The notes below the pieces were generated by a model. That model saw only the letters and a list, made by a program, of their open reading frames with translations, had not been told where the DNA came from and made no database searches. A DNA stretch of 64,000 nt from Bacillota bacterium (GTDB lineage Bacteria; Bacillota; Bacilli; Alicyclobacillales; SLC66), in contig JAKADA010000003.1 of NCBI GenBank assembly GCA_021820975.1, positions 1-64,000 of the forward strand, written 5' to 3'. Of the stretch, positions 43,064 to 47,271 are shown piece after piece; position 1 is the first letter of the stretch, and every line of letters begins with the position of its first letter. The position numbers and the translations under genes were made by a program.

Positions 43064-43072
43064 TGCTATACT
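43064..43072 (+). promoter_or_regulatory. Extended -10 promoter of the SDR-rqcH pair
   Basis: TG (43064-43065) one base before TATACT (43067-43072) makes an extended -10. The -35 region 17 bases upstream is poor, and TTGATT at 43041-43046 is too far away. Initiation would fall about 35 bases before the SDR start. Confidence 0.55.
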
Positions 43073-43108: not shown

Positions 43109-44053
43109 ATGCGTAAAGCTTTAATCACAGGCAGCGCAAGTGGATTAGCAGTTGCCTTTGCGCGCAAACTAGCAGCGCAAGGATTTACGATCATCCTGAA
43201 TTATCGAACTTCAAAAGCACGATGTGAAGCGTTAGCATCCCAATTGAGCGAAGAATTTTCTGTAACAGTTCACACCATCCAAGCTGATATGACCATTGCC
43301 CTTGATATTGACAATATGATGAATGAAATTGAACAACAATGCGGTGCTATTGACACCGTCGTACATAGTGCTGGACCGTTTGTTTTTCAACGCAAACGAT
43401 TAACAGAGTATACTGCCCTTGAATGGGATCATATGATAGCTGGAAACTTATCCTCTGCATTTCACCTTTTTAAACGAGCTATCCCTTTGATGCGTCCGCT
43501 TGGTTTTGGCCGTATCATCACAGTCGGCTTTGATCGCGTGGAGCAAGCCCCTGGTTGGGTCTATCGTTCTGCTTATGCCGCGGCCAAAGTAGGCCTTGCA
43601 TCATTAACTCGCACCATCGCACTTGAGGAGCAAGAAAATGGAATTACCGCGAATATGATTTGTCCAGGTGACATTAGGGGCAAAGATAAAGAAGCTGATT
43701 TTCGTGAAGATGATCTCATTTTACCTTTACGCATGCCGATTGGTGCTGATCTAGCTCATACGATTTCCTTTTTGGTTGATGAAAAATCACAATTTATCAC
43801 GGGTAACATTATTCGCGTCGCAGGAGAGACCGACGTGATCACCCACTTTGATCAAGGCAAACGCGATGTGATAGACCCTACGTTCTTGCAACCAGGCTCT
43901 AGTGTCATCGTACTTCCTTGGCGCAAGCGTGGTGTGATCGTTAACCGTCACGATCGTCATAATCGGCGTTCTATTTATACGGTACAAGTAAATGAAAAAA
44001 TCGAGCGTTTTACCGTAGATCAGTTGTTGGAGGTAGAAACAGATGACTTATGA
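43109..44053 (+). CDS. Degenerate SDR-family protein with KOW/SH3-like C-terminal domain
   Basis: A 314-residue protein. Residues 1-245 have the Rossmann fold of short-chain dehydrogenases: TGSASGLA (usual TGxxxGxG; last Gly replaced by Ala), NYRTSK, VVHSAGPF and YAAAKVG (Tyr156, Lys160). The catalytic Ser normally 13 residues before Tyr is Arg143 here. Residues about 258-310 make a small beta-rich domain (PGSSVIVLPWRKRGVIVN and TVQVNEKIERFTVDQLLEV) that looks like a KOW/SH3 domain of the kind at the end of MutS2. ATG with GGGAGTG upstream. The end overlaps rqcH by 11 bases, so the two are translationally coupled. Confidence 0.8.
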   Translation: MRKALITGSASGLAVAFARKLAAQGFTIILNYRTSKARCEALASQLSEEFSVTVHTIQADMTIALDIDNMMNEIEQQCGAIDTVVHSAGPFVFQRKRLTEYTALEWDHMIAGNLSSAFHLFKRAIPLMRPLGFGRIITVGFDRVEQAPGWVYRSAYAAAKVGLASLTRTIALEEQENGITANMICPGDIRGKDKEADFREDDLILPLRMPIGADLAHTISFLVDEKSQFITGNIIRVAGETDVITHFDQGKRDVIDPTFLQPGSSVIVLPWRKRGVIVNRHDRHNRRSIYTVQVNEKIERFTVDQLLEVETDDL

Positions 44054-45779
44054 TGGATTGGTTTTATCCGCAGTGACAAACGAAATGTCTGCGCTTTTGA
44101 CAGGCGCAAGAATCGATAAAATACAACAGCCAACCGATCATGACATGGTACTGACCTTGCGTAATGAACGGACAACCTACAAACTCTTGCTTTGCGCTAA
44201 CAAAGCTTATCCACGTGCCCATATCACGACGCGTTTTGCAACGCCAAACCCTGCTGTAGCGCCCATGTTTTGTATGTTGATGCGCAAACACCTTGAAGGT
44301 GCACGGATCGAACGCATAAGTCAGTTCAGCCGCGAAAGAATTCTATTTATTGATGTTGAAGGACGTGATGAACTTGGCGAGCCTGCCATGCGTCGTCTTG
44401 TTCTTGAAATCATGGGTAAACATAGCAATTTACTGCTCTTAAACACGGTTGATGGCATCATCATTGATGCTATCTCGCATGTCACATCGCGTGTAAATCG
44501 ATTTCGGGAAATCCTACCAGGACGACCGTATGTCTATCCACCTGTACAAGATAAAAGCGACCCTTTTTTAGAAACACAAGAAGGATTCCTTGAAAAACGT
44601 GCCCTCCAAAAGGCAACACCGATTGAAAAATTCCTCGTGCAAAACTACTTAGGTGTCAGCCCGTTTTTCGGTAAGGAAGTGGCTTATCGCCTACACGGCT
44701 TGGAAGAATGGACCGTGTTTTCACAGCTTCTTATGAAGTGTCAGCAAAGTCAAACTCCCACTGTGATGGTCGATCGAAATGGGGAAATGTCTGCATTTTA
44801 TTTGTTTGACGTACTGCACACTAAACTAGAAGCACAAATCATGCCTTCAGTCAATGATTGTATCGATCTTTACTACACGGCGCGTGCGTTACGCGATATT
44901 GCTCATGCCAAAGCAGGAGCTTATCTTCGCTTAATTCGTACAGAACGTGACAAAGTGGCATTGAAAATCGATAAGTTTGAACAATTATTAGCTTCTTCCA
45001 AGGACGCCGAGCAGTGGCGCATCTCAGGTGAATTACTAACCGCCTACCTGCACGTTGCGCAAAAAGGGCAAACAGAAGTAAGTCTACCCAATTTCTACGA
45101 TGAAGAAACACCACTTGGTATTGCGCTAAATCCAGCTTTAACGCCGCTTGAGAACGCCAATGCCTACTTTAAGCGTTATGCAAAATACAAAAAAGGAATT
45201 GGCATTACACAAGAACAGCTAGCACTAGCTAAAGAGGAATTGGTCTATCTTGATTCGGTACTTCATGAATTAGAAACAAGTCATGTTGAGGACCTTCCTG
45301 CTATTGAAGGTGAATTACGATTGGCAGGTTACCTGCGTAAACAAATGGATGTACCAAAAAAGAAAATAGTAACGGAAAAGAAATTTACACCAACACGGTA
45401 TGTGTCAAGTGATGAGATTTCGATTATGGTTGGTAAAAACAATCAAGAAAATGACATGATTTCGCTTAAAGTAGCACGTAAAACGGATACTTGGTTGCAC
45501 GTTAAAGACGCCCCAGGTTCACATGTCGTCATCGAACACCCTAATCCACCTGAATCGACGTTACTTGAAGCTGGAATGCTCGCGGCCTATTTTAGTCGCC
45601 AACGTGATTCATCCAAAATTGCCGTGGATTATGTACCCATTAAAAATCTATGGAAACCAAACAAAGCACGTCCAGGATTTATCCTTTTTACAGGTCAACA
45701 AACCATGCTGATTACAATCGCAAAAGACAAAATAAATACCTTACTGAAAACGCGCACCTCAACCAGCCGTCGGACATAA
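44043..45779 (+). CDS. rqcH: Ribosome quality control protein RqcH (NFACT family, YloA)
   Basis: A 578-residue NFACT protein. N-terminal MTYDGLVLSAVTNEM and GARIDKIQQPTDHD (NFACT-N), HhH segment near 170-240, coiled coil around 280-430, and the NFACT-R domain with RYVSSDEISIMVGKNNQENDMISLK, KDAPGSHVVI and the end near TGQQTMLIT. In B. subtilis RqcH recruits tRNA-Ala to stalled 50S subunits and adds Ala tails to mark the chain. GGAGGT lies 9 bases upstream of the ATG. Overlaps the SDR upstream and the minus-strand gene downstream. Confidence 0.95.
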   Translation: MTYDGLVLSAVTNEMSALLTGARIDKIQQPTDHDMVLTLRNERTTYKLLLCANKAYPRAHITTRFATPNPAVAPMFCMLMRKHLEGARIERISQFSRERILFIDVEGRDELGEPAMRRLVLEIMGKHSNLLLLNTVDGIIIDAISHVTSRVNRFREILPGRPYVYPPVQDKSDPFLETQEGFLEKRALQKATPIEKFLVQNYLGVSPFFGKEVAYRLHGLEEWTVFSQLLMKCQQSQTPTVMVDRNGEMSAFYLFDVLHTKLEAQIMPSVNDCIDLYYTARALRDIAHAKAGAYLRLIRTERDKVALKIDKFEQLLASSKDAEQWRISGELLTAYLHVAQKGQTEVSLPNFYDEETPLGIALNPALTPLENANAYFKRYAKYKKGIGITQEQLALAKEELVYLDSVLHELETSHVEDLPAIEGELRLAGYLRKQMDVPKKKIVTEKKFTPTRYVSSDEISIMVGKNNQENDMISLKVARKTDTWLHVKDAPGSHVVIEHPNPPESTLLEAGMLAAYFSRQRDSSKIAVDYVPIKNLWKPNKARPGFILFTGQQTMLITIAKDKINTLLKTRTSTSRRT

Positions 45780-47207
45780 AGCACGCCAATTGTCTAGGGT
45801 TTTTTCCAGTTGAACGGATACATCGATGTAATCAAACAACGGTTGCAACAAAGATTCGCGTAATAGCAGCATCTCTAGTGTTTCTGTTTGTAAGGCATAG
45901 TGCGTATGCAAAACGCGAAAAATGAATTGTTCTATATCTGTGCGCCCTGTATACGATGCAAGTGAAGCCAATAACATAACGACCAACATGAGCAATTCGC
46001 CCATCTCTTGCAAATGATCGCCAGCATTTTGTGCCTCTTTTAACCATAAAGTCACCGGCGCCAAATCTCGCAGATGGGCTTGCTCCATCATCATTTTAGC
46101 CAATGAAAGGTACTCTTCGATAAGCCTCCATGTTCCCTCTCGTCCCTTATCTTGATCATGACGCAGATGAGCTTGACACAAAGATCCAAAACGATCGGCT
46201 AAGATTGCTCGCCCCACGTAAGCGCAGCCCGCCGTTTCTCGCACGACAACTTCTTGACCAATGGCACAAATCGCGGCAAAGGTACGCTGTGCAAACAAGA
46301 TATGATCGGTATAATCTGTCGATCGATCAATCTCAAGCGCAGACTCCGCTAATCCATATAAGGACGCTACAGTCGCTTCGATAAAGTGAAATAACTGTTG
46401 GCCAATGAGTCCTGTACGAACGATGCGTTCTAACGCATGCACCACATCACGAGCATCCTGAATACGTCCTTGCGCTAAAGCGTCTTTGCCAAGTTCCTTC
46501 AAATTCGATAGCACAGCATTTAACATCCCAGCCTCTCGTTCCTTGGCGGCAATTGTAGCAATTTCAATAAATTGATTGGTGACCGAATTACGCGTTTCTT
46601 TCGTGCCTTTCGTGACGATGTCATGAAGTGTCTGCAAAGCGATCATTCCTGTAGTTGAATCAAGATCTACGGCTGCTCGCTTTGCAATATCACAAATCTG
46701 TTCGACTTTCGTCAGTGCATCTCGCTCATGGCCTTTTCGAATTGCAAACAAAAACTCCTGTTCAATGGCCGCAATGATGCGCTCAGGCTTTAACATTTGC
46801 ATAATCGAAATCATGTAAAGAATCAATATGCCAAAGCACATAATAACGAGGACAATATCGGCATTCATCTGTGGTTGTAAATAACTAGGTAAGGTTTGAT
46901 GAATCGGATCTGTAATGCGTGACAATAAAAATAAGCTTTGAATTATCGTGACAAGATAAAACAAAGCAAGTGAAATGTTATAAGGGAATTTAATAAACAA
47001 ATCGAGCACACGATGCGTATACCTTGTCGCCGTCAACTGAATAGCTACTAAGGTGATCGATATACTTAAAGCAAAAATCGTAGATAAACATGAAACAATA
47101 GTACTGAGATAATTTCGTGCAGAATCCGTATCTCCTGCAAACGCTTTGGGAGATGCTACAAAGACAAACAGCATTATGGCAATTGATACAACAGCATGCA
47201 AGATCAT
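45759..47207 (-). CDS. DUF2254-like membrane protein
   Basis: About 482 residues. Four membrane helices in the first third (at about 5-25, 35-60, 80-100, 120-145), then a soluble alpha-helical domain of about 330 residues. The LSISITLVAIQLTATRYTHRVL segment resembles the DUF2254 core; the identity of the rest is uncertain. Function is unknown. ATG at 47207 lacks a clear ribosome site; TTG at 47219 is a possible start. The 3' end overlaps the rqcH 3' end by 21 bases on the opposite strand. Confidence 0.6.
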   Translation of the reverse strand: MILHAVVSIAIMLFVFVASPKAFAGDTDSARNYLSTIVSCLSTIFALSISITLVAIQLTATRYTHRVLDLFIKFPYNISLALFYLVTIIQSLFLLSRITDPIHQTLPSYLQPQMNADIVLVIMCFGILILYMISIMQMLKPERIIAAIEQEFLFAIRKGHERDALTKVEQICDIAKRAAVDLDSTTGMIALQTLHDIVTKGTKETRNSVTNQFIEIATIAAKEREAGMLNAVLSNLKELGKDALAQGRIQDARDVVHALERIVRTGLIGQQLFHFIEATVASLYGLAESALEIDRSTDYTDHILFAQRTFAAICAIGQEVVVRETAGCAYVGRAILADRFGSLCQAHLRHDQDKGREGTWRLIEEYLSLAKMMMEQAHLRDLAPVTLWLKEAQNAGDHLQEMGELLMLVVMLLASLASYTGRTDIEQFIFRVLHTHYALQTETLEMLLLRESLLQPLFDYIDVSVQLEKTLDNWRALCPTAG

Positions 47208-47271
47208 CTTGCGAATCAAAAGGCATCATTCCCGCAGTAGTCTCCTGCGTAGTATTCCCAAAATTCTCCCC

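Follow-up and report, generated by a model that had tools for sequence, protein, structure and literature searches.

The window, that is, the whole 64,000-nucleotide stretch of DNA that was analyzed, carries two overlapping genes on the forward strand at positions 43,109-45,779, the first encoding a short-chain dehydrogenase/reductase (SDR) with an additional C-terminal domain and the second encoding RqcH. The features of the locus are as follows.

43064..43072, forward strand: possible extended -10 promoter TGcTATACT, 36 nt 5' of the SDR start (seen by eye, weak)
43109..44053, forward strand: SDR gene (314 aa, P0001), a KOW-tailed putative folate/pterin reductase
43109..43858, forward strand: SDR (Rossmann) core, residues 1-250 (Pfam adh_short_C2 4e-39, residues 8-238), with the TGSASGLA loop, Asn113, Asp142-Arg143 replacing Ser, Tyr156-Lys160, and PGDIR (Arg190)
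43895..44038, forward strand: SH3/KOW-like barrel, residues 263-310 (AF2 models, MutS2 KOW fold match), with strands at residues 265-268, 273-283, 286-294, 297-301, and 306-308
44029..44033, forward strand: Shine-Dalgarno sequence of rqcH (GGAGG), within the SDR 3' end (read from the sequence)
44043..44053, forward strand: 11-nt overlap of the rqcH ATG (44043) with the SDR TGA (44051-44053)
44043..45779, forward strand: rqcH, 578 aa, NFACT family (Pfam NFACT_N 3e-130, NFACT-R_1 2e-12)
44334..44339, forward strand: RqcH Glu98-Arg99, at the site of the conserved 97DR98 motif

An earlier sequence-only reading had described a 314-residue SDR with a TGSASGLA loop whose stop overlaps the rqcH start, and the coordinates, the length, the Pfam match (SDR at residues 3-238, with no match across the tail), and the 11-nt overlap all bear this out. 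The promoter candidate was not called by a consensus promoter scan, and the output of the promoter and terminator scans was no better than chance. Convergent with rqcH, and overlapping its 3' end by 21 nt, lies a gene for a 486-aa membrane protein (45759-47219, reverse strand). This gene also adjoins rqcH in many genomes of f1, the family of the window's genome (named relatives Sulfoacidibacillus and Ferroacidibacillus), and of f2, another family of the same order.

Orthologs of the SDR occur in 55 of the 59 genomes of the order. A scan of genome contigs gave no matches with the single protein as query but succeeded with an alignment. The window's genome holds at least 12 further SDR-like matches, the best of which is 32% identical to this SDR. 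Both parts of the protein are under purifying selection, the core strictly (dN/dS 0.04-0.12) and the tail more loosely (0-0.34). In f1, the arrangement yloB (divergent)-SDR-rqcH is found in all 14 assembled loci holding the SDR (14 genomes, eight genera, 50-69% identity). SDR and rqcH overlap in ten of them; in the remaining four, 1 to about 70 nt lie between the genes. The placement of the rqcH Shine-Dalgarno sequence in the SDR 3' end is repeated in most. In f2, rqcH directly abuts yloB and the SDR is located elsewhere; no adjacency to rqcH was seen in any SDR locus read from f2, from the Bacillaceae (69 orthologs), or from two genomes outside the order (G090 and G131). The pairing, which the sequence-only reading had suggested surveying, is thus not random, yet it does not extend beyond the f1 lineage. 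Other conserved neighbors of the SDR (a methyltransferase and an aminotransferase V in f2, a pseudouridine synthase and PBP1 in f17/f30) gave no functional clue, nor did those in the Bacillaceae, and the literature on ytkK, 3I4F, or an SDR together with RqcH yielded nothing relevant.

The closest PDB relative of the SDR core is 3i4f (8e-65), a putative 3-oxoacyl-ACP reductase of Bacillus thuringiensis from the same SDR subfamily, with which the AF2 model aligns at a TMt of 0.87 and 46% identity in structural alignment. It is a structural genomics entry for which no characterization was found in the literature; it also lacks the Ser, but it is tail-less and has Phe at the catalytic Tyr. The cofactor loop of the window SDR departs from TGxxxGxG in its final Gly, replaced by Ala, a conservative substitution common to all f1, whereas the f2 loop mostly departs at the first Gly instead. 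From the catalytic Asn-Ser-Tyr-Lys set, Asn113, Tyr156, and Lys160 are retained and are invariant in f1 and f2; the Ser is missing, with none nearby.

Arg143 had been proposed to take the Ser position. The absence of Ser stands, but which residue replaces it depends on the end used as anchor, as the loop is two residues longer than that of FabG: from Tyr156 (-13) it is Arg143, with Asp142 one residue off, whereas a count from the preceding strand (GRII) leads to Phe141. Among 114 orthologs, the residue 13 positions before Tyr is Arg in 12/13 f1 sequences (Arg/His overall), Gly in 31/32 f2 sequences, and Arg in 65/69 Bacillaceae sequences (Arg/Lys), while residue 142 is Asp or Glu in 110. The loss of Ser is subfamily-wide. 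A FabI-like Tyr-x6-Lys arrangement using Tyr152 was also considered and rejected, as the interval is in fact x7 and f2 sequences do not conserve Tyr152. The Bacillaceae orthologs (L089-L157) and 3i4f keep Arg143 and carry Phe for the catalytic Tyr (66 of the 69 Bacillaceae sequences); this widespread Phe-type SDR, which has a solved structure, is probably inactive.

FabG, the 3-oxoacyl-ACP reductase, shares the classical SDR fold and the YxxxK motif but differs in having the Ser, and the FabG equivalog TIGR01830 (NCBIfam) scores 133 bits, where the cut-off is 297.75. The earlier suggestion that the protein does something other than fatty-acid reduction is thus reasonable. The top NCBIfam by score is TmpR (NF012208), an SDR-type dihydropteridine/dihydrofolate reductase, again below its cut-off (148 bits against 325).

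The distribution of folate genes in the order gives this resemblance a context. HPPK, which marks de novo folate synthesis, is present in 58 of the 59 genomes, whereas DHFR (PF00186) is absent from 17 of the 18 f1 genomes, the window's included. Because HPPK shows that f1 cells make dihydrofolate, they must reduce it. ThyX-like matches occur in 16 of the 18 f1 genomes and ThyA in none, so no dihydrofolate recycling is expected from thymidylate synthesis; the reduction step is still needed. In the window's genome, two weak ThyX (Thy1) matches stand in tandem within an open frame of 481 aa (G000:C81:5901-7244). The sole DHFR in f1 belongs to G048 (genus g4), a genome 83% complete in which no SDR was matched: it lies between yloB and rqcH (L245:857-1465, PF00186 E 4e-47), 30-odd nt ahead of rqcH. 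It is an in-place non-orthologous replacement of the SDR. Similarly, the only complete f2 genome lacking the SDR (G041) has DHFR and no ThyA. The picture in f2 is otherwise mixed, as SDR and DHFR occur together in 13-14 genomes. DHFR there mostly accompanies ThyA, so the type of thymidylate synthase confounds part of the SDR/DHFR pattern. Most f2 genomes (e.g., G001-G015) have neither ThyA nor ThyX by Pfam, which leaves either a thymidylate synthase hole or a very divergent ThyX.

A wider survey covered 362 Bacilli genomes outside the order, of which 55 had no DHFR above the cut-off and 307 had one. Two SDR copies were found in 23 of the 55 DHFR-less genomes and in 2 of the 307 others, so that 23 of the 25 two-copy genomes are DHFR-less (Fisher p 3e-19, a value that overstates the evidence since the genomes are related). 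The same split recurs within single families, comparing DHFR-less with DHFR-positive genomes: 9/9 against 1/10 in f17, 7/7 against 0/3 in f30, and 1/1 against 0/10 in f11. Wherever the sequence was read, the extra copies in DHFR-less genomes are of the type with Tyr156 and PGDIR (Arg190), whereas the SDR copies read in DHFR-positive Bacilli mostly have Phe and/or PGDI[VIT]; the exceptions, G302 and G362, combine DHFR with an Arg190-type SDR. Conversely, several DHFR-less genomes (G079, G110, G123, G116, and G267) yielded only an SDR that lacks Arg190, and some 20 DHFR-less Bacilli have no SDR of this family. In the tree, 14 copies from DHFR-less genomes of f17, f30, f31, f39, and f49 form one clade (98/94), and f1, f2, G090, and G131 fall into a group of their own (91/79). 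Thirteen changes of the DHFR label are needed, against 27.5 with shuffled labels. Relatedness inflates the survey figures; the switches inside single families, together with the two losses of the SDR, are firmer. The distribution is nonetheless complementary to that of DHFR, and it suggests, as far as genome content can, folate reduction rather than a ribosome factor.

We therefore give about an even chance to the reading that the gene encodes a folate/pterin reductase of the SDR type that substitutes for FolA, carries a KOW-like barrel, and is co-translated with rqcH. An NAD(P)H-dependent SDR would reduce dihydrofolate (or dihydropterins) in place of the missing FolA-type DHFR. Tyr156, Lys160, and Asn113 would serve hydride transfer and protonation, and the site would be fitted to a pterin instead of a ketoacyl group by Asp142/Arg143, the aromatic residue that follows AGP, and Arg190 of PGDIR; we infer both the substrate and the part played by each residue. 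The aromatic residue and the Asp are the ones to compare with PTR1/FolM, in which an acidic residue replaces the catalytic Ser; by the count from Tyr156, Asp142 lies one residue off that place. The FolM, PTR1, and TmpR pteridine and dihydrofolate reductases share the SDR fold and a replaced Ser, and under this proposal they would share the role. Unlike them, however, the window SDR has a catalytic loop longer by two residues as well as the KOW-like tail. It is only 21% identical to Escherichia coli FolM and has Gly where Arg is expected in TGX3RXG, the motif of FolM/PTR1 pteridine reductases (PMC1971073). By sequence motif, then, it is not a FolM/PTR1 enzyme.

The main rival is a generic SDR with a confounded distribution: an ordinary or moonlighting enzyme acting on another small carbonyl or enoyl substrate, with the DHFR anticorrelation arising secondarily from lineage and from the use of ThyX or ThyA. 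An SDR annotation cannot fix the substrate, no folate gene lies beside the SDR in the loci read (save the DHFR that replaces it in G048), and the many f2 genomes with both SDR and DHFR, the latter tracking ThyA, fit this explanation. It accounts poorly, on the other hand, for the parallel gain and loss with DHFR inside f17, f30, and f11 and for the in-place swap in G048, and the loss of Ser would be unusual for a carbonyl reductase. We consider it a serious though lesser possibility.

For the tail, the sequence-only reading had noted by eye a likeness to KOW/SH3 domains such as that of MutS2, and structure prediction and profile searches of the tail, run as it had proposed, uphold the likeness. 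AlphaFold2 predicts the SH3 layout, in which a short helical turn precedes the last of five strands, for the whole protein and, with confidence, for the tail alone (mean pLDDT 82). Among 350,542 PDB chains, the top two fold matches of the tail-only model are both MutS2 (9a5o_B and 8r55_z, the latter from a MutS2-collided disome, with an rmsd of 1.8 over 52 columns and a TMq of 0.70). These matches have a Foldseek E of 0.004-0.009, no PDB match of the tail reaches 0.001, and eS4 and Tudor barrels rank close behind. The consensus of 16 orthologous tails reads G..V.V.PW...A.V......N....Y.V........FT..QL. Pfam MSSS, the MutS2/Smr SH3 family, matches 5 of these 16 (best E 0.01, short of the gathering score) and reported no match for the window's own tail. 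The tail profile scores 24.4 by hhalign against the order's own MutS2 domains (maximum of 40 column shuffles 15.0) and 19.1 against L24 KOW, the control (shuffled maximum 13.0); the MSSS profile score is not independent, because MSSS was chosen after the Pfam hit. NusG-type KOW was discarded as the nearest relative, doing no better than chance (13.8 against 14.5 shuffled), and a sequence search of the tail against the PDB was uninformative. Weak tail-profile matches (E 0.003-0.008) to a two-SH3-barrel protein of other Bacilli (L175:949-1713, L180:931-1656) reflect an unrelated architecture. The tail is thus SH3/KOW-like and nearest to MutS2, without being a member of that family by the Pfam cut-off. 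It shares the five-strand barrel of the MutS2 KOW/MSSS domain (PF20297) but is fused to an SDR, with no ATPase or SMR domain; no prior description of an SDR-KOW fusion was found in the literature examined.

From the co-translation, a ribosome-linked role had been proposed. Spelled out, the protein would be a ribosome-associated (pseudo)enzyme whose barrel binds the ribosome, perhaps at uS10 as the MutS2 KOW does, and whose SDR part acts as a sensor of NAD(P)H or some metabolite, working with RqcH in nascent-chain quality control. Besides the fold match, this reading draws on the fact that the MutS2 KOW binds uS10 and that MutS2 acts upstream of RqcH (PMC10897456), and on the translational coupling kept in the 14 f1 loci. 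RqcH itself has changed in f1, the family that has the SDR-rqcH coupling: the conserved 97DR98 motif, which acts in tRNA-Ala recognition (PMC8373112), reads ER (RER) in 13/13 f1 loci, whereas 15 of the 17 f2 loci that were read keep DR. Several observations nonetheless count against such a role, and we regard it as unlikely. MutS2 itself is also present, and SH3 barrels bind many kinds of partner, with Tudor and eS4 barrels scoring nearly as well here. The tail is also older than the rqcH pairing, being present at a distance from rqcH in four f2 genera as well as in G090 and G131. Both of the latter are DHFR-less, and they are the only genomes outside the order in which a tailed SDR was found. 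Genus g4 (L020, L021) has lost the tail and kept the pairing and the overlap. Tail and pairing are therefore separable. As the coupling is lineage-bound and a DHFR fits the same slot in G048, what the slot apparently demands is a folate reductase rather than a ribosome-binding protein, and the SDR-rqcH link is regulatory or positional, not proof of a ribosome job.

Under the folate/pterin reductase reading, the SDR of f1 would have been placed in the yloB-rqcH gap, with rqcH coming to be translated from the SDR tail, and the MutS2-KOW-type barrel probably tethers the enzyme to a partner, either protein or RNA. A bolder version, which we hold to be improbable, combines both ideas: this non-FolM SDR family would provide many folA-less Bacilli with their main dihydrofolate reductase, and the branch with the KOW tail would dock on the ribosome or a translation factor. 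If true, folate reduction, and hence initiator-tRNA formylation, would be tied to translation or rescue. Least probable of all is a catalytically dead pseudoenzyme retained for structural or regulatory reasons, for although Ser is absent subfamily-wide and Phe replaces Tyr in the Bacillaceae and 3i4f, the invariant Tyr156, Lys160, and Asn113 of f1/f2 and the low dN/dS of the core speak against it.

Folate synthesis in bacteria that lack FolA is a standing puzzle ("Life without dihydrofolate reductase FolA," 2003, as cited in PMC5954106). The SDR locus offers a concrete candidate for the replacement of FolA in a whole order and in several other Bacilli families, supported by the natural swap in G048, and it illustrates that tight coupling to rqcH need not imply a function in ribosome rescue.
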